Shown piece by piece: positions 29,690 to 56,871 of a stretch of 59,488 bases of DNA. A model generated the notes under the pieces. It saw nothing but the letters and a program-made list of their open reading frames with translations, was not told the origin of the DNA and did not search any database. Source of the stretch: Prevotella sp. (GTDB lineage: Bacteria; Bacteroidota; Bacteroidia; Bacteroidales; Bacteroidaceae); the NCBI GenBank assembly GCA_017395215.1, contig JAFPVW010000110.1, positions 1-59,488 of the forward strand, given 5' to 3'. The position numbers and the translations under genes are program-made. Every line of letters starts with the position of its first letter. Positions within the stretch are counted from its first letter, which is position 1.

Positions 29690-29878
29690 TTAATAATTGT
29701 CGTCATCGAAGTCATCCCAGTAGTCGTCGGACTCGCGGGAGAGGATGCCTCGTTGGCGGGTGACACCTTTTTCTGTCGAATTACCCTGTGCTACTGATAT
29801 TTGCGTCAGCAGCTGGAGCTGACAATCTACCACAATCGCCGTGGGGACTATATAAACTTTCCTCTTCATCATAATCAT
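29690..29878 (-). CDS. Small protein coupled to the second giant gene
   Basis: 62 residues, MIMMKRKVYIVPTAIVVDCQ at the start and an acidic, aromatic end (DDYWDDFDDDNY). Its ATG overlaps the stop of the giant gene (ATGA at 29875-29878), a sign of coupled translation. I recognise the KRKVYIVPTAIVVDCQLQLL pattern as a small conserved Prevotella family, of unknown function. Alternative starts are M3 and M4. No clear cleaved signal peptide, although the first part is mildly hydrophobic. It could be a partner or chaperone of the giant protein; this is only an inference from the overlap. Confidence 0.65.
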   Translation of the reverse strand: MIMMKRKVYIVPTAIVVDCQLQLLTQISVAQGNSTEKGVTRQRGILSRESDDYWDDFDDDNY

Positions 29879-40400: not shown

Positions 40401-43400
40401 GTTGTTGCTGTCTCTGTTGACCAGTTTCAGGGCATAGGGTGAGCCGAAGAGTGCCCAGTGCGAATTGTTGGCTGTGGTGCTTGTTTCGGCATTACTTCCT
40501 GCACTGCCGATGTTGTGCTCGTCTGAAGTGCCAGCATTGAGGTAGTTATTAGTATTGCAGAAGCGGATGGCATACCAGTACTGAGTGGTGTTGTTACTAA
40601 CCTTAAACAGGTTGTCGGTACCCCAATCCGTGTCAAGGTCGTATTTCATATAGACATTATAGTTGCTTGCAGCAATCTTGTCGGCATCGACAGCCGTCGA
40701 ACCGTCAGCAGTGATGGCATCGGTACAGGCGGCATCATAATAAAACCTTTGGTTGCTGGTGTAGGTGCGCGTAAGGAAGAATGGGGTGAATGACGGCATG
40801 GCTGCCCCACTCTTGTAGTAGCCGTGCAGGGTACACTCGGTATTGCCAGAGTTGTCGATGACGTTAATGTTCAGTGATGGCAATTCTGTTATCTTCAGTT
40901 TTCCTGCCTCACGCTGGGGGTCCAAGCGCCATCCGCCATCATTGTCGCCATTGTAATAGACGTATTTGTCCTGTATTCTATTGTACAGAGCATAATAGCC
41001 TGCTGTCGTGTTGCCGCCATAATAGACAATGCTAAATGGGGTGGCACTGGCTTCACTGGTTGCCAGATGCTCTATTCTTCCATCATTGCTGGTGGACGAC
41101 TGGTCGATATAACGTCCTGAGCCGACTCCTTGAATCTTGATGTTATAGGGGTCGTCACCCAGATACCACATGAATGAATTGTCTATAAAGGCAAGTGTGG
41201 CAGCACTGATGCCGTCATTTCCGTTTTGTGCATCCAAATTCTCTCCGCGAAGCCACCAGAGGTTGTCGTAGGTATGGCTTTCTATCGTTCGATATACGGC
41301 ATGCATGTACTTGTTGCTGACGTTGTAGATGGCGAACTTCTTGTTTGCATTGAACTCGTCGGTCTTCACATCGTAGCCCACATACACCGTAGATTGAATC
41401 CATTCGGAAGTTTCGGTGAGGTTGGTGCCGCTGTTGGCCTGTGCCTCGGCAATGGTGTTGTAGTATTTGTAGTTGTTAGCGAAAGGACTGCGGTAGGCGT
41501 TGGGCAGCGGGTCAGTGATGAGACTGCCACTTGCCACGGTGGTGGTCATGGCTACGTTGCCGCTTTTGTCGATGATGTTGAGCGTGTAGGTGTCAATATT
41601 ATCGACAACGGTGACGGTGATGACTTCTGACGTGCCATCGTTTAGGGTCGCGTCGTTGGCCACTGCCTTGAAATAATAGGTGCCGGCAGAACCTGGGGTG
41701 AAGGTATAGGAAACCTTCTCGGTATTGGATGTTGCCAAAGCATCACCACTGACGGTTCCTGCGTCATCGTTGCACTGGTAGATTTTTATGCCGGTGTAGT
41801 TGCTGCCACCATGCTGAGTGGCGTTGGCCGTAATGGTAATGCTGTTGCCTGTCTTGATGGATGCCGTGGTGCCTGCCGATGCGGCGATGGCAGCAGTTGG
41901 TGCCTGCGGCTCCAGGCTTCCCGTCTGCACGAAGTAGATGTAGTCTATCCATCGTGAGCCGGTATTAGTGTTGTCGGTGGTCAGGGTGATGGCCTGCCCG
42001 TCGGCCGTCACATCAAACTCCGCTGTGGTCAGCTCGGTAACGGCATTGTTGGTGGCACTGCTGCTGCTGACCGTGGCCGCTTGCGTGCCATCGACAAGGA
42101 GGTTGTAGGTGTAGGTGCCCTGGCTTTTATAGGTTTCGCCATAACCTATCACAGCCTTGTACTTGCCGCGAGGCAGGGCTGAGGTGACGGTGGCGGTGTT
42201 GCCGCTGACGAGGTTGCCCGCCATGCCGCCGGAGCCGAGGGCCATAGCCCAGTAGCGTCCGTGGCTGGTCTGCGCCAGGTCGAGGTCGGCACCGAGGACG
42301 GTCATGCCCGTCATGTCCTCACCTTCCACCACGAGGATAGCCTTCGGGATGAAGTTGTTGGCGCTTACCGCCAGCGACGAAAGGCTCTTCTCGCTGTAGC
42401 TGATGGCCGAGGGTGTTTCTGTGGTGGTGATGGTCTGTGCATAGTTGGGTCGGCTGCTGTTGGCTGCCACCTCGTAGAGTTTGTCGCCGCTGACGATGTA
42501 GCGGGGTACGGCAAACGACTTGCTGCCGTCGGTGTCGGTCTTGATGGTGGCAAGGGTCGGGCCTGTTGTGCCGTCAAGCGATGAACCCACTGTAAGGTCG
42601 TGTTTGGTTGTCGCATTGAGTTGAGACGTGTATGAGGTTCCGTCCCACAGTTGGCTGATGAGATACTCTAAGTCGCGCTTGACAAACTCATTGGTCTGGT
42701 CGTCGCGGTAGATGGCCATCAGCTGGTTGATGTGGTCGGTGATGCTCGTCTCTAAACCGATATTCATGGTATAGCCGATGCCGCTGCCTCCGTCAGTAGC
42801 ATAGCCGCCGGTGACGGGCACGGTCTTGCCGCTTGCCGTGGAGAAGGTGGGTGCTCCTGTGCCCGTGAGTCCGGGGATATTCAGCGTCAACTCACGATAC
42901 TGGTTCTTGTTGTAGGTGGGCACCTGCACGTCGAAGGTGAGGTAGCCGCCACTATATACGACTTTCTCAATCTTCAGGTTGTTGTAGATGTGGTAGTACT
43001 CCCACACCTCGTCGGCAGAGCCTACCCAGGCTTTGTCCGTCACGTTGGCAGTGCGCAGGTGTTTTTTTATCTCGTCGCCCAAGCCGTGGGTACCGCCGAT
43101 GACGATGTTGTCGCCGGTAGCGCTGTTGACCGTACTCATCCATGAACTCTCGTTACCCTGGAAGAAGGTGCGGGCATAGCCGCCCGTGGGCTTGCTGCTG
43201 AAGGTAGTGGGCATGGTTCCAAAACCTGTAGAGGTCCAGTCGGAACGGGTGGCTGCCCAGACGTTCAAGGCCTTGCTCTGGAAGGGGTATTCGGAGGTGC
43301 TGTTCTGGAAGATGTTCCAGCAGATACCGCTGTTTGCACTGCCTGCGGCAAGGTAGTTGTGGTTGCCGTTGGGCTCCACCATCACCTTCAGGCCAATGCC

Positions 43401-44072
43401 CACCTTCGTAGCCCACTGGGTGTTGTTGGCGGTCATGGCGGCGGAGATAGCTGACACAGAGCTGATGTCATCCACGTCGTGCTGGGCAAAGCTCCAGCCC
43501 GTGCGCAGCATCAGCTTGGCATCGTAAGCGTCAATCTTGTCGTATTGCGATGTACCGTCCGACTTCAGCAGATAAGGCATGATGGCTGAGGTCATGCGGT
43601 AGCGTTGCGTCTTGCCTACGTTGTCGGTGTAGGTCATCGGCTGGTAATCTTCCGGATTGCTGCTCTCGCCCTGCATGTAGTACTTCTTGTAGGGCGCGGC
43701 AAGGAAGTCTGTGCCACCGGGCTGTATGCCTACGTCCACGTTGGCGTTGATGTTGGGGTAGCCGTTCACCTCAGCCCAGTTGTTGGTCAGCTCGGTCTTA
43801 CCCATGTCGTCGCTGGTGATGACCAGCGGGAACGTTTTGTTGTACTTCACGCGGGCCATCTGGGGCACACCCTTGCCGGAGCCTGTTTCTCCTGCGTCGG
43901 CATCGTAGCCCGTTGCGGGAATGCTGACGGTCACGGTCTCATAGCCTGTTACGTCGGCCTGTGCATAAACCACGGCACTCCTGGCTGACATCGCCAGCAG
44001 GAGCAGCATTCCGATTACTCTCATCATAACACTTTGTTGACTCTCGTTTCTATACTTCATTGTCGTGTTCAT
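37419..44072 (-). CDS. Second giant repeat protein, 5' part, NodB-like N-terminus
   Basis: About 2,217 residues from ATG 44072 (a GTG at 44084 is possible). A signal peptide ends near VVYAQ. Next comes a region resembling polysaccharide deacetylases (VITSDD, H202-like FAQHDVDD, then DEVWEYYHIYNNLKIEK), an about 145-residue carbohydrate-binding-like sandwich (VVEGEDMTGM), an Ig-like module, then repeated IDKSGN/RSPFANNYKYY/VYVGYD modules. Residues about 1,630-2,125 match about 700-1,200 of the first giant protein. The frame ends in LATSP after a one-base loss near 37463. The NodB function is inferred from partial motifs, and the usual H-x3-5-H pair is not clear. It is transcribed from 44121-44128. 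Confidence 0.8.
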   Translation of the reverse strand: MNTTMKYRNESQQSVMMRVIGMLLLLAMSARSAVVYAQADVTGYETVTVSIPATGYDADAGETGSGKGVPQMARVKYNKTFPLVITSDDMGKTELTNNWAEVNGYPNINANVDVGIQPGGTDFLAAPYKKYYMQGESSNPEDYQPMTYTDNVGKTQRYRMTSAIMPYLLKSDGTSQYDKIDAYDAKLMLRTGWSFAQHDVDDISSVSAISAAMTANNTQWATKVGIGLKVMVEPNGNHNYLAAGSANSGICWNIFQNSTSEYPFQSKALNVWAATRSDWTSTGFGTMPTTFSSKPTGGYARTFFQGNESSWMSTVNSATGDNIVIGGTHGLGDEIKKHLRTANVTDKAWVGSADEVWEYYHIYNNLKIEKVVYSGGYLTFDVQVPTYNKNQYRELTLNIPGLTGTGAPTFSTASGKTVPVTGGYATDGGSGIGYTMNIGLETSITDHINQLMAIYRDDQTNEFVKRDLEYLISQLWDGTSYTSQLNATTKHDLTVGSSLDGTTGPTLATIKTDTDGSKSFAVPRYIVSGDKLYEVAANSSRPNYAQTITTTETPSAISYSEKSLSSLAVSANNFIPKAILVVEGEDMTGMTVLGADLDLAQTSHGRYWAMALGSGGMAGNLVSGNTATVTSALPRGKYKAVIGYGETYKSQGTYTYNLLVDGTQAATVSSSSATNNAVTELTTAEFDVTADGQAITLTTDNTNTGSRWIDYIYFVQTGSLEPQAPTAAIAASAGTTASIKTGNSITITANATQHGGSNYTGIKIYQCNDDAGTVSGDALATSNTEKVSYTFTPGSAGTYYFKAVANDATLNDGTSEVITVTVVDNIDTYTLNIIDKSGNVAMTTTVASGSLITDPLPNAYRSPFANNYKYYNTIAEAQANSGTNLTETSEWIQSTVYVGYDVKTDEFNANKKFAIYNVSNKYMHAVYRTIESHTYDNLWWLRGENLDAQNGNDGISAATLAFIDNSFMWYLGDDPYNIKIQGVGSGRYIDQSSTSNDGRIEHLATSEASATPFSIVYYGGNTTAGYYALYNRIQDKYVYYNGDNDGGWRLDPQREAGKLKITELPSLNINVIDNSGNTECTLHGYYKSGAAMPSFTPFFLTRTYTSNQRFYYDAACTDAITADGSTAVDADKIAASNYNVYMKYDLDTDWGTDNLFKVSNNTTQYWYAIRFCNTNNYLNAGTSDEHNIGSAGSNAETSTTANNSHWALFGSPYALKLVNRDSNNEGLFAAASMALTGNSAATAKMQTESNEFATVWEMRDINNTKINTNYRTKPALNPFGSFSGEAPYFFLYANSTSLNPTDNQNCRILQYDYKGSSTVAATLALSSTSNTTYVDQQVTLTATATPDGEKSVTYFAIEQETATDTWTVVGTAYSGTNAEGATKDENGVVTLTYPFTPSAEGLFNFRAKAIVDNNDASPLYSTDENQLSQQLTITASIKQLSPKNSSYTLTLIDKGGNELLTEASVPASRITTVNTLTNRNGDPFGNAYRSPLVTTYKYYEGTVAGKASAEAADDYNQVDWNTYTGTTVYVGYTVSDAIDLNGKDSNGNYKFSSLNNDANSLMQNRVHRDNNDANPLVRDASKFGKMYMLKFKTSAAYNLEDGSDNRNATATPANTLIYPYTNGDGPIYMYSHQRYLDQKDNGASTRTRWPWYLVSPKNDPYHVYITSWQSSHTDNTDNTNHYSYLRTYYNSTINQVVTNNVTDDDRTLEGGNGSQIMPTDYMILNGSGTDGLKYKLMTSSTITDASTTERRTVTSFEQYWRNNPTAQVASGGTKNSTVVETNNSTLIGFGWHNYKTWVNAANWTGAKYNINGKDYSKDYLYDDHWYMTVNVGDGSLDIVETNIDGVLVLLDNHGWEIMRQPIVEHDDDDYATVQEALRKYDSPMVKNYKFYSTRNVDHKVPGYHKYDITYLTSDKTKITGLTLVNSSETITSLANYPEVTSGGALTDLYVTYEVADDYANSYTGAATEAGTSASSFLLQQGSNYAKANSTAIESTSTVADADRWYLRPNFNIDAEMGYLYTTGSDGEKDKTTLETLYNTNSSNGFDPYNLQIQNVNSSTYFTTNASTAALNSGAWTGNGSSLSLAAVSTQITPTGYDNKTLAVTNATFMAVQDQYGNMRLMPRFQHEQVVDDFATLADPATLSAYDATNAQTTQLTTPVTYHIIDNSGNDALQMTVTDGVGLKVPDALKSPMVSAYQFHSTLAMPPMLPLVELATSP
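37455..37470 (-). other. Frameshift site splitting the second giant gene
   Basis: The upstream frame reads STLA then MPPMLPL to a stop. Adding one base after the GCC codon gives STLA-x-ASDASTRGTGDLSV, which continues in frame for 2,500 residues. No slippery heptamer is visible. Confidence 0.8.
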
Positions 44073-44120
44073 ATTATCCACCACTGTAATCTCTTGTAGT
44101 TACACTGCTGTTATCGGCTG

Positions 44121-45756: not shown

Positions 45757-45902
45757 GCCTCCCCAAGCCCCTCCAAAGGAGGGGATGTTTAGATACATAA
45801 CTGGGGTATTATTCTAAAGATTAAACATTAATTATTTATTTTCAGCCATGAAGCCTCCTTGTCTATTCAGACATCCCCTCCTTCGGAGGGGCTTGGGGAG
45901 GC
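45757..45902. repeat. Palindromic element between kduI and the MFS gene
   Basis: 32-bp arms (45757-45788 and 45871-45902) are inverted repeats with one difference. Each arm has an inner short hairpin (cccctcc...ggagggg). Total 146 bp, ending one base before the kduI stop codon. Its G-rich arm lies 9 bases before the MFS ATG. Confidence 0.8.
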
Positions 45903-46904
45903 CTAACGGATGTCTATTACGGGAATGTTGTCCTTGTCGTTATAGTAAAGGTTCTCGCCGGCCATGCCCCAGATGAAGGTGTAGTAATAGGTACCGGCAG
46001 CGGCATGCATCGACCACTCGGGCGACATGATGGCCTGCTCGTTGTGGAGCCAGACGACACGGCTCTCCTCAGGCTGTCCCATGATGTGGGCGATGGTCTG
46101 CTCCTGAGGCAGGTTGAAGTAGTAGTAGGCCTCGATACGGCGGCCGTGGGTGTGGGGCGGCATGGTGTTCCACGCAGCACCGGGGTTGAGCTGCGTCAGG
46201 CCGAGCTGCAGCTGGCAGGGGCCCTCCTCAAGCACGTCGTTGACGATGAGCTTGTAGACGGTGCGGTTGTTGCACTCCTCAAGCGAGCCGACAGGGCCCC
46301 AGACGGCGGCCTTCAGCGAACCCTTGCGGCCGTCGAGGGTAATCCATTGCGTCTTGAAATGCTGATGGGCGGTGGCCGAGTTCAGGTAGAACTTGGCGGG
46401 ATTCTTGGCATCCTTCGAGCGGAACTGCACCTTCTTGTTCACATCCTTGTCCTTAGCAATGTGGCCACGGCCGATGTAGAGGGCCTCCTTGGGTGAAAGG
46501 GCGTACTCCTTACCATCGACGATGACCACGCCGTCGCCCGCGCCGCAGTTGACGACGCCAAGCTCACGGTTGTACATAAAATACTTCTCCTTGATGGTGT
46601 TGTCGACGTCGAGGCCCAGCTCCCAGAAGTTCTCCAAGGTCAGCGTGGTGTTGACGGGCATCGCCCCACCGAAGATGAAGCGGTCGTAGTGGGAATAGGT
46701 GAGCAGGATGGAGTCGGCAGCCATCACCTTCTCCATCACGAAACGGTCGCGGAGCAGCGGCGTGTCGTAGTGTTTCACATCCTCGGGATGACAGGCCGTC
46801 TGGAACTTCACGTGCTGAACGCCAACATACCTGTCGGCTTCCTGCGCCTGGGCAGAAAGCGTGAGGGCCAAAGCCCCCGCAATGGTTAGAATTGCTTTTT
46901 TCAT
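45903..46904 (-). CDS. kduI: 5-dehydro-4-deoxy-D-glucuronate isomerase with signal peptide
   Basis: 333 residues from ATG 46904. The KduI family is seen from [40 protein letters not shown], and the metal-site [13 protein letters not shown] near 249-257, with [13 protein letters not shown] near the end. KduI converts 5-keto-4-deoxyuronate to 3-deoxy-D-glycero-2,5-hexodiulosonate in pectin or glycosaminoglycan use. The first 20 residues, [20 protein letters not shown], look like a signal peptide, so this copy may be periplasmic. The permease gene ends 10 bases upstream, and the MFS gene follows, giving a small uronate cluster. KduD is not in the window. Confidence 0.9.
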
Positions 46905-46914
46905 TGTCTTGTTT

Positions 46915-48282
46915 TTATTTGTTGTTCTTTTCTTCTTTAACGATGCGCATGCGGTTCCAGATGACCATGCCGATGGTGATGGCAGTGAGGACAGCGGCAC
47001 CAATCCACTTCAGGTAAGCCACACACTTGTAGATGACCCAGCCGAAGAGCGAGGAGGCGAAGTCGAGGGCACCACCCTCGAAGCCGGCGGGAATGTCGGC
47101 GGCCTTGTCGCCCGTCTGCTCGAAGACGGTGTGGGCAGCCTGCGTAAAGGCGGGCGCCATGTCGGTGACGAAGTAGAGGCCGATGGCCAGGGCTACCAGT
47201 CCGATGATGAACGTCTTGACGACATTACCCTTCGTGAACGGCAGCACCACGGGGAACAGGTAGAACATACCAGCCAGCGAGGCCAGCGGCAGGAACTGGT
47301 TGCCGGGCAGGATGACGGCCAGGCCCAGGGCCACGGGGATGAGCAGCAGCGAGACGACGAGCGTCGTCGGGTGACCGATGACCACGGCGGGCGACATGCC
47401 GATATACACCTTCTTGCCGTTGAACTTGCGCTTCACCACCTCCTGCGTCTTCTCGGCGATGGGCTTCAGACCCTCGATGAAGAGCGAGGTGATGCGGGGA
47501 ATCAGCTCCATGACGGCACCCATCGTGACGCCGAGGAACAGGACTTTCTTGATGTCCATCTGTGCCAGCACGCCGATGAGCGCGCCAACAATGACGCCGA
47601 GCACGAGCGGCTCGCCGAGCACGCCGAACTTCTTCTTCAGTCCGTCGGCATCGATGTTCAGGCGGTCGAAGCCGGGAATCATGTCGAGCAGCTTACCGAT
47701 GCCCAAGGCGAAGGGCACGAAACTCTGGCAGAAGGGCTGCGGGATGCTGATGCCCTGCCACTCAGGGTAGTACTCCTGGAAGCGGTCGGCGGTGAGGTCG
47801 GCCATGACCAGCGTCACGATATAACAGACGATGGCGGCGAAGTAGCCCCACAGCAGGCTCTCGTCCATGACGAAGTAGGCTACGGCGCCGATGAAGGCGA
47901 AGTGCCAGTAGTTCCATAGGTCGATGTTGACCGTCCTGGTGCAGCCGGTGATGAGCAGCAGGAAGTTCACGCCCAGACAGATAGGAATGATGAGTGCGCC
48001 GACAGCGGTGTTGTAGGCCACGGCTGCAGCTGCAGGCCAGCCCATGTCGAAGACCTTCAGCTGAAGGTCGTAGAGCTGTGAGATGTCACTAAGCGGCCCA
48101 CCGAAATTGGTGGTCAACAGAGCCGTCACAATGCCCAGACCCACAAAACCGACACCTACATAGAGGCCCGACTTCAGCGAGCGTCCGAACTTCAGACCGA
48201 TACACAGACCGATGATTGTAAAGAGAATAGGCATCATTACCGACGCCCCCAAACTGATAATGTAACTGAATACTTGTTCCAT
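46915..48282 (-). CDS. Galactitol-type EIIC-like permease
   Basis: 455 residues, about 10-12 membrane segments. The N-terminus ([39 protein letters not shown]) and MVLTLPRIT-like [20 protein letters not shown] match the PTS galactitol EIIC (GatC) family. No EIIA, EIIB, HPr or EI gene is visible in the window, so it may work without phosphotransfer. It begins an operon with kduI (10-base gap). The substrate is probably a uronate or sugar alcohol by context; not proven. Confidence 0.75.
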
Positions 48283-48323
48283 TTTATTGATTAGTTTTGT
48301 TTGTTTTAGCGCAGAATACGGTG

Positions 48324-48353
48324 CAAAAGTACTAAAATAATTTTAAATAGCAA
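48324..48353 (-). promoter_or_regulatory. Promoter of the permease-kduI operon
   Basis: On the minus strand, TTG at 48351-48353, a 19-base spacer, and TACTTTTG at 48324-48331, about 42 bases before the ATG. Confidence 0.65.
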
Positions 48354-48374
48354 CAGAAATTAAAAGAAATTGTG

Positions 48375-48382
48375 TAACTTTG
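48375..48382 (+). promoter_or_regulatory. -7 promoter box of the M6 protease gene
   Basis: TAACTTTG about 32 bases before the ATG at 48415; no clear -33 box. Confidence 0.5.
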
Positions 48383-48414
48383 TGCCCTCATATTTGCTAT
48401 CATAACTATAATTT

Positions 48415-49941
48415 ATGACAAAGACAATTCTGACGACAGCCCTGGCGCTGCTTTTCATACTCACTACGGCTACGGCTGACTCGGTACACCGCGGACCGGG
48501 ATGCTGGCGCACACACACTGCCCGCCAGAAAGCCGCCGCACGTCTGGCTACGCAGAAGCCGACCGACTCGGACATACTGACCAACTACCGTGGACAGAAG
48601 AAAGGGCTGGTCATTCTGTGCGAGTTCACCGACAAGAAATTCCTCGATGCCCACGACCGCGACAAATACAAAGACATCCTCAACACGCATGGCTATGCCA
48701 CCAACGAGGGGTTCCGGGGCAGCGTCTCCGACTACTTCCGCGACCAGTCGGCAGGACTCTTCGAGCTGAACTTCGACGTGGTGGGGCCGTTCACCACGAA
48801 GAAAGACTACAAGTACTACGGCAAGAACGACGCAGACGGTCTTGACCTCTATCCGCATGAGATGATCATCGAGATGTGCAAGGCCGCCGACCCGGAGGTA
48901 AACTATGCCGACTACGACTGGGACGGCGACGGCTTTGTCGACGAGGTGTTCGTGGTCTACGCCGGCAAGGGCGAGGCCGACACCAACCAGGAGAGCACCA
49001 TCTGGCCACACATGTGGACACTGACAGAGGCCCAGGATGCGACCCTGACCTTGGACGGCGTAGAGATCGACGTCTACGCCTGTGCCAACGAGCTGAAGTC
49101 GTCGGGACGCATCAACGGCATCGGCACGTTCTGTCACGAGTTCTCACACTGCTTAGGGCTGCCCGACTTCTACGACATCTACTACAGCGGGGAGTTCGGC
49201 ATGGACGACTTCGACGTGATGTCGGGCGGCAGCTACGGCGGCAACGGCTTCTGCCCCGTGGGCTACACAGCCTACGAGAAGATGGCCTGCGGCTGGCAGC
49301 AGCCCATCGTGCTTGGCAGCGAGGACGTAACGGTGGACAGTCTGAAGCCCATGAGCGAGCACGGCAACACCTACATCATCTACAACGACGCCTACCCCGA
49401 CGAGTACTACCTGATAGAGAACCGCCAGAAGAAGGGCTGGGACGCCGACTACCCCGACCAGGGACTGCTCATCACCCACGTTGACTTCGACGAGGATGTG
49501 TGGTACAACAACATTCCCAACAGCGTCATCTCAGACAAGGACGCCATCAAGGACGGTCTGACCTGCGGCAACGACCACCCGCGCATGACCATGTTCCATG
49601 CCGACAATGACGATAAGTATCTGGCCTCCGACCTCTACCCCTGGTACCGCAGCGACTCGCTGACGGCAACCTCGAAGCCCGCCGCCACGCTCTACCACAA
49701 GAACTCGGCCGGCACAAAACTGATGCAGGGGGCCATTCTCTGCATCAGGCAGAACAGCGGCGGCACCATGGCCTTCAGCTACCGCGCCCCGAAGCAGCCG
49801 GTAGCCGACGGCATCACCGAGGTGACCGGCCGCCGTCGCAGCGGGACGGTATACACCATAGACGGACGTGCCGCAGGGACGGCACTGCAGTCCCTGCGAC
49901 ACGGTATCTACATCGTCGGCGGCAAGAAGGTTGTCCGCTGA
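48415..49941 (+). CDS. Secreted M6-family metalloprotease
   Basis: 508 residues. Signal peptide about 1-21. The zinc motif HEFSHCLGLPD is at 241-251 (H241, E242, H245), with a downstream Met-turn-like FDVMSGGSYGGNGF. An earlier VILCEFTDKKF and YFRDQSAGLFELNFDVVGPF are typical of M6 peptidases. The end, TVYTIDGRAAGTALQSLRHG and IYIVGGKKVVR, is the same type of C-terminal sorting tail as on the second giant protein. It should be exported and surface-attached or released. It stands alone, divergent from the uronate operon. Its substrate is unknown. Confidence 0.9.
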   Translation: MTKTILTTALALLFILTTATADSVHRGPGCWRTHTARQKAAARLATQKPTDSDILTNYRGQKKGLVILCEFTDKKFLDAHDRDKYKDILNTHGYATNEGFRGSVSDYFRDQSAGLFELNFDVVGPFTTKKDYKYYGKNDADGLDLYPHEMIIEMCKAADPEVNYADYDWDGDGFVDEVFVVYAGKGEADTNQESTIWPHMWTLTEAQDATLTLDGVEIDVYACANELKSSGRINGIGTFCHEFSHCLGLPDFYDIYYSGEFGMDDFDVMSGGSYGGNGFCPVGYTAYEKMACGWQQPIVLGSEDVTVDSLKPMSEHGNTYIIYNDAYPDEYYLIENRQKKGWDADYPDQGLLITHVDFDEDVWYNNIPNSVISDKDAIKDGLTCGNDHPRMTMFHADNDDKYLASDLYPWYRSDSLTATSKPAATLYHKNSAGTKLMQGAILCIRQNSGGTMAFSYRAPKQPVADGITEVTGRRRSGTVYTIDGRAAGTALQSLRHGIYIVGGKKVVR

Positions 49942-49944
49942 CGG

Positions 49945-52554
49945 TCAGTCCTGGAAATACACTTTCTTGACGCGCCCCGACACGCCCGTGAGCACCTCAT
50001 AGGGAATGGTGTCGGTCAGGTCGCTGAGCACGGTGACGGGCAGGCTGCTGCCGAAGATCTCGACGCTGTCGCCCTCGTGGCAGTCGATGCCGGTACAGTC
50101 TATCATAGCCACGTCCATGCAGATATTCCCCACATACTCAGCCCGCTGGCCGTTTACCAGGCAATAGCCGTGGCGGTTTCCGAGGTGGCGGTTCAGTCCG
50201 TCGGCATAGCCGATGGGGATGGCCCCTATGAGCGAGTCGCGGTCGAGCACGGTGCGGCGGCTGTAGCCTACGGAGTCGCCCGCCTTCACGTGGCGCAGCT
50301 GCAGGATGGTGGTCTTAAGTGTGCTCACGGTACTCAGCATCTCATTGTTACGCGGATTCACGCCGTATAGCCCAATGCCCAGTCGACACATGTCCATCTG
50401 CCGCTGGGGGAAGTGCTCAATGCCGGCTGAGTTGTCCATGTGGCGCAGAATCTTGTGGCTGAAGGCTGCCTGCAGCCGGCGGCTGCCCTCATCGAACAGC
50501 TGGAACTGACGGGCCGAGAAGTCGTCGAACGAATCGCTGTCGCTGCCCACGAAGTGTGAGAAGACCGAGCGCGGAATCACCGCCTGCTGATGTTTCAGAC
50601 GGTCAATCAAAAGGTCTATTTCAGACCCACCCCCCAGCCCCTCCCTGTGAGGGAGGGGAGTAGATACTCCTTCAGCAGCTTTATCACCTACAGGGAACAC
50701 TCCTTCATTTGCATTTTCGCCTGCAGGGTAATCACTCCCCTCCCTCACAGGGAGGGGCCTGGGGGTGGGTCCGACATTAAAGCCCAGGCGGTGCATGCCC
50801 GTGTCGAGCTTGATGTGTACGGGCCAGCCGGTGATGCCCTCCTTGCGGGCGGCCTTGATCAGCGCGTCGAGCAGGCGGAAGGAGTAGACCTCGGGCTCCA
50901 AGTCGTAGTCAAACATTGTCTTGAAGGCCGTCATCTCGGGGTTCATCACCATAATGTTCGCCGTGATGCCCGCCTTGCGCAGCGTGACGCCCTCGTCGGC
51001 CACGGCCACGGCGAGATAGTCGACGCGGTGGTCCTGCAGCGTCTTGGACACCTCGACGGCGCCGGCACCGTAGGCGTCGGCTTTGACCATACACACCATC
51101 TTCGTCTCCGGCTTCAGGAACGAGCGGTAGTAGTTCAGGTTGTCGACCACGGCATTGAGGTTCACCTCGAGGATGGTCTCGTGGACTTTCTGCTCCAGCT
51201 GCTCGGTAATGCGCTCAAAGCCGAAGCGGCGCGCGCCCTTCAGCAGGATGAGCTCGTCGTGGAGCTGGGCGAAGACGGGACTGGCGAGGAAGTCGTCGGT
51301 GGTGGCGAAAAAGGATTTTTCGCCCACAAGGAAGGTGTGGGAGTGGGCGGAGATGGCATCGCCGATGCCGATGAGCTTGGTGACGCCGCGCTTCATGCAG
51401 AGGTCGTTCACCTGACGGTAGAGTTCGTCGGGCTGTTCGCCACTCTGGTAGATGTCGCTCAGGATGAGGGTTCTCCTGGCCGTGGGCTGCTGTTGGCGAC
51501 GGTTCATGAAGTCAAGGGCGATGGCCAGCGAGCTGATGTCGTTGTTGTAGGAGTCGTTGATGATGGTACAGCCGCGCTGCCCCTGCTTCACCTCCAAGCG
51601 CATGGCCACAGGCTCCAGACCGGGCATGCGCCCGGCAATCTGCTCGGGGGTCAGTCCGAGGTGCAGGGCCGTGGCCGCGCAGATGATGCTGTCGTCGATA
51701 CTGGCCTCATCGATGAAGGGAATGGTATACTCGCCTTGCGTACCTTTATATATATAGGTGACATGGGCTGACTGCGCATTCAGGGTAATCTCCTTGACGA
51801 AGAAGGGCGCCTGACTGTCGGTGCGCGACCAGCCGATGCGCTCGCCCCGGTAGCCGAGGCGACGTATGCAGCGGCTCACGATGTTGTCGTCCATCGGATA
51901 GACGAGGGCCCCGGTGTCGTGCATCAGTTCCAGCTTCTCCAAGCACTTCTCCTCCAGCGAGCGGAAGTTCTCCTGATGGGCACTGCCTAAGCAGGTAAGT
52001 ACGCCGACGGTGGGCTGGATGATGTCGTGGAGTGCCATCATCTCGCCCGGCTGACTGATGCCCGCCTCGAAGATGGCCACCTCAGTCTGCTCGCTGAGGA
52101 GCCAGACAGACAGCGGCACGCCTATCTGCGAGTTAAAGGAGCGCGGCGAGCGCACGATCTTCTGCGACGGCAACAGCAGCTGGTAGAGCCACTCCTTGAC
52201 CATCGTCTTGCCATTGCTGCCGGTGATGCCGACCACGGGAATCGAGAACTCGTCGCGATGGCGCTCGGCCAACCGCTGCAGGGCGGCTAACGACGACGGA
52301 ACCTTCAGGAAGTTGGCATCAGACTGCGGATGCTCGGGCACCTGCTCCACCACGAACGAACGGACGCCGCGACGGTAGAGGTCGTCGATGTAGCGATGGC
52401 CGTCATTGCGCTTGGTGCGCAGGGCGAAAAAGAGCGTTTCCTCAGGAAAACACAGCGAGCGGCTATCGGTCAGCAGCCACCGCACATTGGCGTCGTGGTC
52501 GCCGTAGCGGCGGGCGCCTACCAATGTAGCTATTTTTTCTATAGAATAAGTCAT
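49945..52554 (-). CDS. murF: MurF-alanine racemase fusion
   Basis: 869 residues. The N-terminal half is MurF (UDP-MurNAc-tripeptide:D-Ala-D-Ala ligase) with P-loop ITGSNGKTMVKEW. The C-terminal half is Alr, with the PLP lysine motif MVKADAYGAGAVEVSK and SVGYSRR plus IPIGYADG. The fusion is common in Bacteroidetes and links D-Ala supply to its use in peptidoglycan. Between about 595 and 643 there is an extra, low-complexity segment (PTPRPLPVREG ... STPLPHREGLGGGS) which comes from a palindromic element inserted in frame. It lies between LDTGMHRLGFN and the EIDLLIDRLKHQQAV helix. The gene has its own promoter. It is 3 bases from the convergent protease stop. Confidence 0.95.
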   Translation of the reverse strand: MTYSIEKIATLVGARRYGDHDANVRWLLTDSRSLCFPEETLFFALRTKRNDGHRYIDDLYRRGVRSFVVEQVPEHPQSDANFLKVPSSLAALQRLAERHRDEFSIPVVGITGSNGKTMVKEWLYQLLLPSQKIVRSPRSFNSQIGVPLSVWLLSEQTEVAIFEAGISQPGEMMALHDIIQPTVGVLTCLGSAHQENFRSLEEKCLEKLELMHDTGALVYPMDDNIVSRCIRRLGYRGERIGWSRTDSQAPFFVKEITLNAQSAHVTYIYKGTQGEYTIPFIDEASIDDSIICAATALHLGLTPEQIAGRMPGLEPVAMRLEVKQGQRGCTIINDSYNNDISSLAIALDFMNRRQQQPTARRTLILSDIYQSGEQPDELYRQVNDLCMKRGVTKLIGIGDAISAHSHTFLVGEKSFFATTDDFLASPVFAQLHDELILLKGARRFGFERITEQLEQKVHETILEVNLNAVVDNLNYYRSFLKPETKMVCMVKADAYGAGAVEVSKTLQDHRVDYLAVAVADEGVTLRKAGITANIMVMNPEMTAFKTMFDYDLEPEVYSFRLLDALIKAARKEGITGWPVHIKLDTGMHRLGFNVGPTPRPLPVREGSDYPAGENANEGVFPVGDKAAEGVSTPLPHREGLGGGSEIDLLIDRLKHQQAVIPRSVFSHFVGSDSDSFDDFSARQFQLFDEGSRRLQAAFSHKILRHMDNSAGIEHFPQRQMDMCRLGIGLYGVNPRNNEMLSTVSTLKTTILQLRHVKAGDSVGYSRRTVLDRDSLIGAIPIGYADGLNRHLGNRHGYCLVNGQRAEYVGNICMDVAMIDCTGIDCHEGDSVEIFGSSLPVTVLSDLTDTIPYEVLTGVSGRVKKVYFQD
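50625..50770. repeat. Palindromic element inside murF-alr
   Basis: Two near-identical inverted arms of about 37 bp (50625-50662 and 50734-50770) and a unique centre, 146 bp in total. It is read as protein in frame. Each arm contains cccctccct...agggagggg. Related to the elements at 45757, 55321 and 56164. Confidence 0.8.
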
Positions 52555-52577
52555 ATCCTTCTTTGTTTTTCAGCATG

Positions 52578-52609
52578 CAAAGTTACGCCATTTCTTTGAG
52601 ACGTCCAAA
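52578..52609 (-). promoter_or_regulatory. Promoter of murF-alr
   Basis: On the minus strand, TTTG at 52606-52609, a 20-base spacer, and TAACTTTG at 52578-52585. The leader is about 20 bases. Confidence 0.75.
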
Positions 52610-52636
52610 CGTTTCATGCTTTTTCTTGTAGACTTT

Positions 52637-53344
52637 TTATCTTCTACGCTTCTTGTGCCACCTCTGCGTGGCCGACCCGAATATATCGAAATCATCAATG
52701 TGAGATATTTCCGGCATGCCGCACCCCATCTCACCCACAACCGTAATGACGTCGAAACGGCAGGGGTTATCAATCTTTCGATACTTGATGTAGTGATTCA
52801 TAGCAAGCCTCAGATGATGTCTCTTTCCGGCATCTATAGCCTGCAAAGGGTCACCGAAGTCCCTGTTGCAGCGGGTCTTTACTTCTACAAAGACGATGGT
52901 TTCGCCGTCCTGTGCTATAATGTCGATGTCGCGGTGAACAGAATGCCAGTCACGCTCCAGAATGACGTAGCCCTTCTCTCGCAGGTAGGCAGCAGCAAGT
53001 TCCTCACCCCAGATACCCAACTGGAGATGTTCTGGTCCTTCTGCAGACTGGTCCTGGCGTTTCTCATCCTTGCTGATCAGCGCCTGACACTTCTCGAAAG
53101 CGCTTCTTACCCATCCTTCCTCGTCGGGAACGCGGGGAAGCATTCGCTCAAGGGCCAGGAGTATCTTCTTCGCCTCGTCAGCCTTCCCTTCTTCAATACG
53201 TTTCTTCAGCACATCCGTTGCCGTCCAGAACATAGCGAGAGATGTATACGGGCCCTTATCCGCAGCATATAATTGGCGGATAGCCTCATAAGCCTCTTCT
53301 ATTCTGCCCTGTTTACGCAGACGAAACACTTCATCGACGGTCAT
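52637..53344 (-). CDS. yraN: TPR-like N-terminus fused to YraN-family nuclease-like domain
   Basis: 235 residues. About 1-95 is helical, TPR-like (VDEVFRLRKQGRIEEAYEAI, MFWTATDVLKKRI). About 108-235 is the YraN/UPF0102 domain: LGIWGEELAAAYLREKGY, RDIDIIAQDG and FVEVKTRCNRDFGDP, which carry the acidic D-x-D and E-x-K residues of restriction-like nuclease folds. The usual YraN protein is only about 120 residues, so this is a fusion with a TPR-like protein known in Bacteroidales. The gene is 3 bases after GSCFA, last in the yfhO-fkp operon. Function unknown. Confidence 0.85.
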   Translation of the reverse strand: MTVDEVFRLRKQGRIEEAYEAIRQLYAADKGPYTSLAMFWTATDVLKKRIEEGKADEAKKILLALERMLPRVPDEEGWVRSAFEKCQALISKDEKRQDQSAEGPEHLQLGIWGEELAAAYLREKGYVILERDWHSVHRDIDIIAQDGETIVFVEVKTRCNRDFGDPLQAIDAGKRHHLRLAMNHYIKYRKIDNPCRFDVITVVGEMGCGMPEISHIDDFDIFGSATQRWHKKRRR

Positions 53345-53347
53345 AGT

Positions 53348-54196
53348 CTAATGATAACGGTTGAGCAGGGCATCGACCTTGGCGCGGGTCTCAGCCATGA
53401 ACTGACGATACTCAGGGCTGTCGGGGTTGAACGGACGGTGGGCAAGGGCGGCCTTCAGCGGTACCCACTCGCGGAGAAACTCCTTGGCGCGGGGCGAGAA
53501 ACAGCTGTCGACGAGTCGCTCCCAGATGTACTCGACAGCCTGCGATGACGGATGGAGCATGTCGTCGGCATAGAAGCGATAGTCGCGCAACTCGTCCATC
53601 ACGATTTCGTAGGCGGGAAAATAGGTGACGGTGAACGTTGAGCGTTGAACGGTGAACGGTGAGCGTTGAACGGTGAACGGTGAACGGTGAACGTTGAACG
53701 TTGAAATGACGTGGTCAACTGCGAGCAGGAGGGTGGCTTTTGAGAGCTGGCTCTCATGATAGCCGTACTTGCGGTAGCGGATGGGACTGACAGTGAGGAC
53801 GATGTGGACATCGGGGCGACGACTACGGAGCAGGTCTATGGCGCGGCAGAGGTAGTCGGCACACTCATCGACCGTCAGTTGCTCCTCCTGGAAGAGCGCG
53901 GCGGGGCGCTTCTGGCAGTTGTCGACTATCTCGCCCGTCTCCTTCAGGCGGTAGACGTGGTTGGTGCCGAGGGTGATGAATACGATACGCGGTGCTCCCT
54001 CGTAGCGCTCAATGGTGTGCAGCACGGAGGCGGGGTTGTACATCGTGCCGTAGGGATTGACGGTGGCACGGAACTGCTCGTCCTGAAAGCGGCGGCCAAT
54101 GCTGTCGGCAAAGCAACTGCCCACAAAGAGCATTTCCTCGCGCGGCTCTATCTGGAAGGGAACCTTGGGAACATCAACTATGGTCCTAAACTCCAT
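53348..54196 (-). CDS. GSCFA-family protein
   Basis: 282 residues from ATG 54196; the longer upstream frame is a shadow of fkp. The start overlaps the fkp stop (TGATG). Near the N-terminus is MLFVGSCFADSIGRRF, the family's GSCFA motif; near the end is FYADDMLHPSSQA, an SGNH-hydrolase-like D-x-x-H pattern, so an esterase-like role is possible. Residues about 166-189 are a 7-residue repeat (SPFTVQR) encoded by the 7-bp tandem array at 53631-53700, absent from other family members as I know them. A change of one unit would shift the frame. Confidence 0.85.
   Translation of the reverse strand: MEFRTIVDVPKVPFQIEPREEMLFVGSCFADSIGRRFQDEQFRATVNPYGTMYNPASVLHTIERYEGAPRIVFITLGTNHVYRLKETGEIVDNCQKRPAALFQEEQLTVDECADYLCRAIDLLRSRRPDVHIVLTVSPIRYRKYGYHESQLSKATLLLAVDHVISTFNVHRSPFTVQRSPFTVQRSTFTVTYFPAYEIVMDELRDYRFYADDMLHPSSQAVEYIWERLVDSCFSPRAKEFLREWVPLKAALAHRPFNPDSPEYRQFMAETRAKVDALLNRYH
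53631..53700 (+). repeat. Heptamer tandem array inside the GSCFA gene
   Basis: Ten consecutive 7-bp units of the form G(G/T)TGA(A/G)C, with degenerate units at both ends (53625-53630, 53701-53707). Three units equal seven codons. Confidence 0.85.
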
Positions 54197-56871
54197 CAGC
54201 TTCTGCTTATTTGTAATCCCGTCTTCGAGAGCGTCATGTCGACGAAGCGGGCATTCGGGGCGAGGCGGTTCTCGTTGAGAACGGTCTTGATACGGGCAGC
54301 AGCCTCGGGGTCCTTGGCCACCATATAGAGGAAGCCGCCGCCACCGGCGCCGGGCAGTTTGTAGCCCAGGCAGAGGTCGTCGACAAGGGCGGTCAGCGCA
54401 GCCACCTCGGGCGGGTTGGTGCCACTGTCGAGCAGCTGGTTCTGCTGCCACGTCTTGCGCACAAGCAGTCCCATCTGCCTGAAGTCCTGCCGCTGGATAG
54501 CCTCGTACATATCCATCGTATGCTGCTTCATCTGGCGCAGCAGGAGCAGCTGGTCGTGCTCGTTGAGGAACATCCGGCGCACAATCTCGGCCAGTATCTT
54601 CTTGGCCGTACGCGTAATGCCTGTATAATATAATAGGTGGCACTGCTGGTACTCGGGCTGCGTGTACAGACCGTCGGGGAGCCAGCGCACCAATGGGTTC
54701 TGATTGAAGCCGCTGGTGGTCAGCAGCAGTTTGACGCCGCCAAGCACGCCGCCAAACTGGTCCTGCCAGCCGCCGCCGGTGGTGAGCATCTGTTCGAGGA
54801 TGAGCGTGCGGTAGCCTATCTCGTTCTTGTCCCAGCCCAACTGGCAGAAGTCGTTAAGGGCACCGAGCACGGTGGCGGCAAGGATGCTCGACGTGCCGAG
54901 GCCGCTGCCGGCGGGAACGGCTGACAGCAGGGTCAGCTCGATGCCGCAGCCGAAGGCTTCGAGCTGGGAGCGGAGCGAGGACTGCGGCACCGCCGCAGCA
55001 CAGCCGACACCAGTGGGACAGCCGAAGCCTGCGAGCGTCAGGGCAGCCTTGGGGATGGAGAAGGGCGAGCCCACCTTCTTGTAGTCGGAGAGCTGCTCGT
55101 TGGTCGCCACGACCTCGGTGGCTCCGAGGTCGATGCTGCGCAGGACGACGTGCGGCTCGCGGCAGGGCTTGACGTAGCACTGCAGCGGCGGCTGGCTGTT
55201 CAGTTCGATAGCGAGGTTGACGACATTGCCGCCTTCCATCAGGCAGAAGGGCGGCGTGTCGGTCCACCCGCCGGCAATGTCGATGCGCACGGGAGAGCGG
55301 GCCCAGACTATCTGGTCGGGGAAAGCCTCACCCCCGACCCCTCTCCAAAGGGAGAGAGGAGTGATTACTCTGCTGCTGATACTGCCGTTAAGCATTTTAC
55401 TCCCCTCTCCCTTTGGAGAGGGGCTGGGGGTGAGGCTTTCCCGCAACAGCCCAAACGCCAGCTCGCTGTCGCCACGGAACATGGCATCGTGGATGCGCGT
55501 CATCAGCGGGGCATCGGCAGGCAGGGGCGGCGGCAGGGGAATCTGTTCCTGGCAGAACTGCTCGGCAGCATCGGCCAGATCGAGCTGATAGAAGACGGAG
55601 TGCTGCCAGTTCTTGGCCAGTGCGGGCCAGTTCTCGCGCTGGAAGTCGCGCCGCTGCGCAAACAAACGGTGCAGGTTGGCACGCTCGGCTACGGCATTGC
55701 TGTCCACAGGGTCGTCGATACGGTAGCGGCGCACCTCGTAGTCGCTGTCGCCAACGGGCACGACATCGATGCACTCGCCCGGCTCCAACGTGATGTTCCA
55801 GTCGTTGCGGGGCACACCGGTGATGACGTGGTCACGGCTAAGATGCCAGCTCTTGGGCACGTGAGAGTTCTCTATCCAGATATTGGTATTCTCCTCGGTG
55901 AACGTCACCTCAGTCACGGCGTTCTGCACGAAGATGTTGGGATGCGGCTTGCGGTCGAGGTGCATGATCTGGCGCTGGTCGCTCACCAGGTTCTGCAAGG
56001 CAAGCGTCGACGAAATCATCTCGCGCGACGTGCCGAAATGATAGAACTCGCCGCCCGTCAACGGCAGGATGGCCACACTCAACTCCCGCAGCTCCGCATC
56101 ATCAATCGTCGGGTCAGTACCAAGCGAGCAGCCAAACTCACCGTACAAATCGTATGGAGTAACCACTCCCCTCCCTTCAGGGAGGGGCTGGGGGTGGGTC
56201 TTCTGGGTCTGCTGGGTCTTTTCCATCAGCGCTTTCACCGCCCGGTCGCTCAACAGCCACACGCCGACATCGGTCAGGTAGTAATGGTCTTTCTGCAGTT
56301 CGTTGAGCGTCTTCACCGAAGGCTTCTGCAGCATCTGCTTCAGCACGGTCGGCGAGGTCCGGCTACTGACGAACACCCCGTGATTTTTGGCCGTCGAGGC
56401 GGGAAGCCACAGACCGTAGCACACCACGTCGGCATCGGGGATGGTCGGCAGGGGCTGCGTGGCGCGCACACAGACATCGCCGCTGACCACCATCGTGTGG
56501 ATGGTGTCGGGCGCCATCGCCATCATCTGCCGGTAGAGTGGCAGCTGCAGGTCCATCAGCGTCTGCGACAACCGCTGGCCGCGCTCCCAGCGCAATACAG
56601 GGACGGGCATCAGGATTTTTCCGCTGACGGCATACGACGGCAACCGCCGACTCTGTCCGCCGGCGTGAACCAGGATGCGCTTGTCCTTCGGCAGCCAGTC
56701 GTCGAACTGGTCATCGCCGCAGGCCTGCTGCAACAGCCACGCCGTGCCGCCACCACTGCCGAGGCGGTGGCCCACAGGGTCGCAAGTGCAGAAAAACTCG
56801 TCGCGGCTCAGGCCGGTAATATCGTGGAAGCAGTCCACCACGTTGGGTGGCAGCGAAAGCAATATCTTCAT
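54196..56871 (-). CDS. fkp: Bifunctional L-fucokinase / GDP-fucose pyrophosphorylase
   Basis: 891 residues. The N-terminal half is the guanylyltransferase (CDPVGHRLGSGGGTAWLLQQ, RILVHAGGQSRRLPSYA). The C-terminal half is a GHMP kinase (WARSPVRIDIAGGWTDTPPF, PAGSGLGTSSILAATVLGAL, GYKLPGAGGGGFLY). This enzyme turns free L-fucose into GDP-fucose for surface polysaccharide and glycoprotein fucosylation. It is shorter than the B. fragilis Fkp that I recall (949 residues) in the central linker but carries two in-frame palindromic inserts, at about 478-517 and 225-236, in non-conserved linkers. It is 4 bases after the yfhO-like gene and overlaps the GSCFA start. Confidence 0.95.
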   Translation of the reverse strand: MKILLSLPPNVVDCFHDITGLSRDEFFCTCDPVGHRLGSGGGTAWLLQQACGDDQFDDWLPKDKRILVHAGGQSRRLPSYAVSGKILMPVPVLRWERGQRLSQTLMDLQLPLYRQMMAMAPDTIHTMVVSGDVCVRATQPLPTIPDADVVCYGLWLPASTAKNHGVFVSSRTSPTVLKQMLQKPSVKTLNELQKDHYYLTDVGVWLLSDRAVKALMEKTQQTQKTHPQPLPEGRGVVTPYDLYGEFGCSLGTDPTIDDAELRELSVAILPLTGGEFYHFGTSREMISSTLALQNLVSDQRQIMHLDRKPHPNIFVQNAVTEVTFTEENTNIWIENSHVPKSWHLSRDHVITGVPRNDWNITLEPGECIDVVPVGDSDYEVRRYRIDDPVDSNAVAERANLHRLFAQRRDFQRENWPALAKNWQHSVFYQLDLADAAEQFCQEQIPLPPPLPADAPLMTRIHDAMFRGDSELAFGLLRESLTPSPSPKGEGSKMLNGSISSRVITPLSLWRGVGGEAFPDQIVWARSPVRIDIAGGWTDTPPFCLMEGGNVVNLAIELNSQPPLQCYVKPCREPHVVLRSIDLGATEVVATNEQLSDYKKVGSPFSIPKAALTLAGFGCPTGVGCAAAVPQSSLRSQLEAFGCGIELTLLSAVPAGSGLGTSSILAATVLGALNDFCQLGWDKNEIGYRTLILEQMLTTGGGWQDQFGGVLGGVKLLLTTSGFNQNPLVRWLPDGLYTQPEYQQCHLLYYTGITRTAKKILAEIVRRMFLNEHDQLLLLRQMKQHTMDMYEAIQRQDFRQMGLLVRKTWQQNQLLDSGTNPPEVAALTALVDDLCLGYKLPGAGGGGFLYMVAKDPEAAARIKTVLNENRLAPNARFVDMTLSKTGLQISRS
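55321..55440. repeat. Palindromic element inside fkp
   Basis: Inverted arms of about 43 bp (55321-55363 and 55398-55440), with a unique centre of about 34 bp; 120 bp, or 40 codons, in frame. It encodes LTPSPSPKGEG and ITPLSLWRGVGGEAF. Confidence 0.85.
56164..56199. repeat. Half copy of the palindromic element inside fkp
   Basis: One arm only: a short hairpin (cccctccc ttca gggagggg) followed by ctgggggtgggt, as in the murF-alr element. It encodes HPQPLPEGRGVV in a loop. Confidence 0.75.

Follow-up and report, generated by a model that had tools for sequence, protein, structure and literature searches.

The palindromic elements and their genomic setting

We analysed a window of 59,488 nucleotides, the whole of contig JAFPVW010000110.1 (C57 in our numbering) of Prevotella sp. 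assembly GCA_017395215.1, which carries four copies of a palindromic element between and inside genes. The source genome is 3.6 Mb in 211 contigs and 85% complete. Palindromes like those of the window bound genes for DUF559 nucleases, and some of these nuclease units lie in frame in host proteins. The preliminary description, made from the letters of the window, had placed four copies here and had read three of them as translated within enzymes; all four were present, their arms being found independently, and the three copies in murF-alr and fkp do lie in frame (Table 1).

Each half element is built on a hairpin, CCCCTCC-loop-GGAGGGG or variants, with an outer tail rich in G; the inner flank is weakly conserved and ends in ACT. 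A pair of inverted halves enclosing a short interior constitutes a doublet, which is mostly ~70-180 bp long here. A simple four-run G-quadruplex pattern was fitted by 62 of 110 halves. The A-type doublet of the window fills the space between a KduI-domain gene (45903-47003, minus strand) and a major facilitator superfamily transporter gene. The B-type doublet occupies a loop in the alanine racemase domain, and its interior contains a 33-nt tandem duplication (50666-50738). In fkp, the product of which has 5yys as a solved relative, arm repeats of the half copy were detected near 56168-56202. As single-stranded DNA, the three doublets each fold into one long hairpin (-40.2, -52.6 and -51.1 kcal/mol), and for each of them none of 200 dinucleotide shuffles was as stable; folding of the 47-nt half copy alone was unremarkable (11/200 shuffles as good). 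The only RNA family matched over the fkp hairpin was mir-2366, below the gathering score, which we took as chance. The murF-alr element, the sole element searched against plasmid and phage collections, had no match there.

Table 1 Palindromic elements of the window and the genes that host them
Feature	Coordinates	Strand	Details
A-type doublet	45757..45902	.	arms 45757-45800 and 45859-45902
murF-alr host gene	49945..52554	-	869 aa; Pfam Mur_ligase_M, Ala_racemase_N, Ala_racemase_C
B-type doublet in murF-alr	50624..50772	.	arms 50618-50661 and 50734-50777
fkp (L-fucokinase/fucose-1-P guanylyltransferase)	54196..56871	-	891 aa; Pfam fucose pyrophosphorylase and GHMP kinase
C-type doublet in fkp, in frame	55318..55443	.	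arms 55312-55362 and 55399-55449
Interior of fkp doublet	55361..55400	.	inverted relative to sibling L033
Single half element in fkp, in frame	56156..56202	.	THPQPLPEGRG reading

A genome-wide search for the motif GGAGGGGCYKGGGG on both strands, allowing at most one mismatch, returned 146 places (73 + 73) against 8 (4 + 4) for the reversed pattern used as control. The window copies are therefore members of a dispersed palindromic element family, and the further copies that the preliminary description had expected are many. Exact motif matches occurred in 55 of 100 congeneric genomes sampled, at 0 to 120 places per genome; the genomes compared throughout are mostly metagenome assemblies. Seven contigs of the source genome (C10, C13, C26, C37, C39, C183 and C191) stop at most ~200 bases from an element. 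Repeats break short-read assemblies, so the copies in this genome are probably under-counted. No description of the family in Bacteroidota was found in the open-access literature searched.

Most copies examined in the source genome are intragenic. We examined the stretches around 100 of the 146 motif places, minus C203 and C210, and 70 of 91 pattern hits were in frame in the longest open reading frame (ORF, at least 190 aa), a set that includes other palindrome types or chance hits (e.g. window 816, L156 1000, L177 1720 and L200 1078). With a stricter hairpin definition, 60/79 elements of the source genome and 44/72 of the sibling genome G100 were in frame inside long ORFs; random 100-nt windows fell wholly within such ORFs in 1690 and 1659 of 2000 draws. 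When a doublet was inserted at random the frame stayed open in 601 of 5000 trials. By simple arithmetic, frame filtering alone predicts ~38% genic doublets, and 39 of 63 were seen. Doublets are open in particular reading frames, which allows them to lie within genes and to be translated into inserted loops. Length modulo 3 of genic and intergenic doublets was uninformative because the element boundaries used shift with subtype.

Pfam domains were present in 28 of the 30 element-bearing ORFs scanned, and in several of these the insert lies in a linker or forms an expansion within a domain match. Host domain types include MetH, DsbD, DapB, Mfd, MetG, MurD, FeoB, AcrB, GltB and PyrG, such protein names being our interpretation of the Pfam domain sets. 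In L170, L171 and L199 one ORF holds two or three elements, in some cases as near-tandem copies. The genic preference may be different outside the genus. Of 14 halves sampled in G455 and G418, 12 lay outside long ORFs, and in G266 9/10 halves lay within them, but the high GC content there gives long ORFs by chance. Very similar C/G-rich doublets were seen in distant Bacteroidota genomes (L283-L302).

DUF559 nuclease genes bounded by the palindromes

Among widely spaced inverted halves in stretches from three genomes, 3 of 11 pairs enclose a DUF559-like ORF of ~120 codons, all in the sibling genome, and membership of the DUF559 family was confirmed for the three enclosed ORFs. The sibling G100 has DUF559 units with arms of the A, B and D types found in the window family, and a further unit (L341) has C-type arms like those of the fkp copy; the palindromes thus have terminal inverted repeats in common with nuclease units, as miniature inverted-repeat transposable elements (MITEs) do with their autonomous relatives. 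PF04480 (DUF559, Vsr-like) scored over the family cut-off in 62 of 100 congeners. In the 30 congeneric DUF559 loci returned by the search, of more than 100 listed matches, a half lay within 450 nt in 21 (a misplaced locus, L334, being entered as a miss) and an inverted pair in 11. The Y1 transposase control gave a half within 450 nt in 0 of 49 untruncated loci, a set that leaves out truncated loci, among them L129, the sole Y1 locus with an element. Of 5000 random windows drawn from element-rich stretches, 430 had a half and 9 an inverted pair.

Alignment of one flank against the other, which uses no motif, scored at least 20 in 21/30 DUF559 loci and in 0/300 random windows. By the same alignment 27 of 47 Y1 genes scored at least 20, with palindromes of their own. 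Among loci from other Bacteroidota families, 16 of 22 also have DUF559 bounded by inverted arms, as do 6 of 6 in three sibling genomes (28 of 30 such loci used, the fragments L386 and L389 being left out; a few scores of at least 20 are long imperfect alignments). Over the 100 genomes, motif count was correlated with DUF559 count (rho 0.56) and less so with Y1 count (rho 0.18, p 0.07). DUF559 was present in 17/17 genomes with at least 10 motifs and in 45/83 others; for Y1 the corresponding figures were 13/17 and 51/83. These correlations and presence comparisons ignore kinship among the genomes. The 30 DUF559 loci form 20 host-locus groups. Orthologous units had inflated a first Mantel test, which was therefore repeated with one unit per host locus and an arm score of at least 14; nuclease and arm distances were still correlated (r 0.56, n = 17, 0/5000 permutations).

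Several nuclease units share a reading frame with their host. In L342, DUF559 lies in one open frame between two ABC domains. In L346 it shares its frame with helicase AAA domains and in L358 with an epimerase domain; in four further units it is continuous in frame with a SpoU methylase (L335), YgbB/IspF (L352), an amino-acid kinase (AA_kinase, L349) and RNase_H (L350). As read from the sequence, the frame appears to re-enter the host protein after the right half in L346 and L358. Several units that lie in operons (L330, L332, L333 and L337) end in a short reading that begins at an ATG, crosses the right half and enters the following gene, seemingly giving that gene a new start. The catalytic-type residues E, D, E, D and H are invariant in 16/16 DUF559 proteins. 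The best solved relative was 3hrl (3.4e-20); a weak match (E 0.085) was to the mobile intron protein 3r3p, which we take to be I-Bth0305I. No description of DUF559 linked with palindromes was found in the open-access literature searched.

Insertion sites and arm behaviour

Elements have been gained relative to orthologues. None of the 80 orthologues of murF-alr has the doublet; at this position they have a variable loop that follows TGMHRLGF, in which one of the loci (L046) holds a half element of another kind; the closest named murF-alr loci are from uncultured Prevotellaceae and Prevotella assemblies. At the fkp doublet site, only L033, L036 and L088 of 61 aligned relatives have doublets, that of L088 with a different interior, and the fkp half copy is common to L033, L034 and L037 among 58 relatives covered there. 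The intergenic site at 45757..45902 has a doublet in L033, an unrelated half in L038 and neither in 9 of 11 aligned relatives. These comparisons support the view of the preliminary description that a palindrome family occupies sites between and inside genes, as in Rickettsia, and neither of the two outcomes that it had named as contradicting this view was seen. It had also proposed looking for target duplications; none that was consistent was seen at the filled and empty sites compared, which are variable loops. A clear presence/absence pair is formed by L208 of the sibling and L259, the empty target in L259 being itself G-rich and resembling the element end.

All three in-gene sites of the window are loops of variable length. 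In the relatives (L033-L112), the murF-alr and fkp loops carry other translated repetitive peptides (e.g. ENSDNS, ANGADE and VRSENTP types), and the loops therefore resemble general landing places for in-frame repeats. Doublets with unrelated interiors occupy the same site in three species (L176 755-877 versus L206 and L270), which suggests turnover or repeated insertion. Similar interiors were found at unrelated genes (dapB/metG, 86% over 49 nt; L143/L188, 79% over 53 nt), so whole doublets disperse.

The interior of the fkp doublet matches that of the sibling L033 with an identity of 1.00 as reverse complement and 0.40 directly, and both readings are open. In the comparison of 14 doublets between the source genome and its sibling, 12 were the same, one had diverged and one, that of fkp, was inverted. 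Frequent inversion of interiors was thus not borne out, fkp being the sole case. The two arms of B/B doublets differ by 2.79 edits, those of reshuffled pairs by 4.34 ± 0.29 (n = 33; 0/1000 shuffles). Both the likeness of the arms and the flip in fkp would follow from template switching across the hairpin.

Elsewhere in the window, a 7/21-nt tandem repeat (GGTGAAC, 11.9 copies, 53624-53705) lies in the frame of a GSCFA-domain gene (53348-54643, minus strand) as a further repeat that is translated. Three very long ORFs of 7872, 2510 and 2221 codons were also observed (4132-27750, 29875-37407 and 37419-44084). The first 3000 codons of the longest have Fn3-associated and chitobiase C-terminal domains, the second had no Pfam match, and the third has a polysaccharide deacetylase domain.

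Candidate mobilisers and relation to known systems

We consider it likely, with a probability of about 0.65, that the window elements are non-autonomous relatives of the palindrome-bounded DUF559 unit, the candidate autonomous form. In this form a DUF559 (Vsr-like, PD-(D/E)XK) nuclease gene lies between two halves. The nuclease would recognise its cognate hairpin and cut donor or target DNA, and repair synthesis would then copy the element in. Doublets would be moved in trans, like MITEs, and single halves may have arisen by half insertion or by the decay of doublets. Thereafter, switching of template from one arm to the other could keep the arms alike and could flip an interior, as in fkp. 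From comparison of sequences we infer the role of DUF559 in cutting and movement, the copying route and the tolerance of host enzymes for the inserts. Several observations weigh against the proposal. L345, the sole DUF559 match detected in the incomplete source genome, lies between two genes read as korA and korB; its arms belong to another subtype and their score is low (17). What doublet interiors have in common with DUF559 units is confined to short stretches near the ends (10/63; Y1 control 0), and no nuclease remnant was found in the 63 interiors compared; this comparison does not support the idea that doublets arose from such units by simple internal deletion. DUF559 is present in 18 of 45 genomes without an exact motif, 11 of 55 motif-bearing genomes have no DUF559 match, and motif number also increases with genome size (rho 0.31). 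The inverted repeats around Y1 genes, although of other sequence, and the lack of target duplications at the compared sites count on the same side.

The inverted-doublet structure resembles that of REPINs, hairpin-forming doublets of repetitive extragenic palindromic (REP) sequences (PMC3116915), which in Pseudomonas are moved by a Y1 transposase (REP-associated tyrosine transposase, RAYT, or TnpA-REP). Y1 genes are indeed present in the source genome: there are two, with the motifs NHxH and YIHQNP, and they resemble subclass 2.6 of PMC6006769, which is mostly from Bacteroidetes. However, both genes (L031 and L032) are bounded by other palindromes, of TCACACGGGGACAGTCCCC-type and AATTGGGGTCGGTTCCGGT-type, and an element was found at one of 32 Y1 loci (L129) and at none of 27 further ones. 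PF01797 had no match in two congeners that are 99% complete and carry 45 and 40 motifs, and motif number has no significant relation to Y1 number. Flanks, presence and copy number thus give RAYT no support as mobiliser, and we regard it as a very improbable one.

DUF559 might instead be cargo or a hitch-hiker, captured between copies or kept for repair or defence, with another enzyme moving the palindromes. Vsr-like DUF559 proteins can have repair-type roles (PMC12907096), and both the missing nuclease remnants and the non-matching arms of the source genome's one unit would fit. Against this, nuclease and arm sequences co-vary over 17 host loci and the association recurs in other families, which makes a passenger role unlikely. 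A third possibility requires no dedicated mobility: hairpin-driven template switching and recombination would spread and reshape repeats in tolerant loops. The inverted fkp interior, the likeness of the arms, the other translated repeats in the same loops and the G-rich empty site in L259 agree with it, but it does not account for similar whole doublets, interiors included, at unrelated genes, nor for the presence of nuclease-bearing units in as many as 20 host-locus groups (30 loci). We hold this explanation, too, to be very improbable.

Rickettsia palindromic elements (RPEs), reviewed in PMC2229807 and PMC10969869 as protein-coding palindromes and present also in Wolbachia, are likewise of ~100-150 bp, occur in many copies and are translated in unrelated, often conserved proteins. 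As with RPEs, the elements here are in-frame palindromes inside protein genes and are absent from orthologues. They differ, as judged from published descriptions of RPEs, in sequence and host phylum, and in being doublets of two hairpin halves with a linked nuclease gene; the two reviewed accounts name no mobiliser. Coding palindromes are also described in nematomorph mitochondria (PMC6649704). With the REPIN-RAYT system the elements share pairs of short hairpins in inverted orientation, REP-like halves that form a hairpin, an occurrence both singly and as doublets, and a cognate gene of nuclease type that the palindromes bound (PMC3116915, PMC6006769). The linked gene here, though, is DUF559 and not Y1, and location is not mainly extragenic, whereas REPINs are described as extragenic (PMC3116915). 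Most REPs are intergenic, yet single or double REPs that code for 20-30 aa lie in frame within ORFs for known proteins in Opitutus, Rickettsia (R. conorii) and others (PMC3733652); these are a minority of copies and carry GTAG or CGTC tags. Such tags were inconsistent here (GTAG in 2, its complement CTAC in 18 and CGTC or GACG in 4 of 105 halves, in the 14 nt inside the hairpin; the outer side was checked from the consensus only). Vsr-like homing endonucleases such as 3r3p are also small nucleases in an apparently mobile setting; the units here differ by their palindromic ends and many nuclease-free copies. No intron was seen, and no intein domain was among the Pfam matches listed for in-frame DUF559 units.

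The relationship of the window elements to DUF559 units, which we favour, leads to a broader proposal that we consider evenly balanced. A Vsr-like DUF559 nuclease with cognate palindromic ends may form a distinct class of bacterial mobile element. Such an element would insert in frame into host proteins or between the genes of an operon, preserving the reading frame or providing a new start, and would drive many translated, nuclease-free copies across Bacteroidota.

Protein-coding palindromes in Rickettsia have been known since 2000, and to our knowledge no mobiliser has been identified for them. The large comparative set from Bacteroidota points to one specific nuclease, so the question of the mobiliser becomes directly testable. 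Selfish-looking DNA adds loops to core enzymes in large numbers, and in fkp an in-gene palindrome has flipped, altering the encoded peptide with the frame still open. If the proposed role of DUF559 is correct, these units would be a non-Y1 counterpart of the RAYT-REP system and would provide a candidate mobiliser for protein-coding palindromes.

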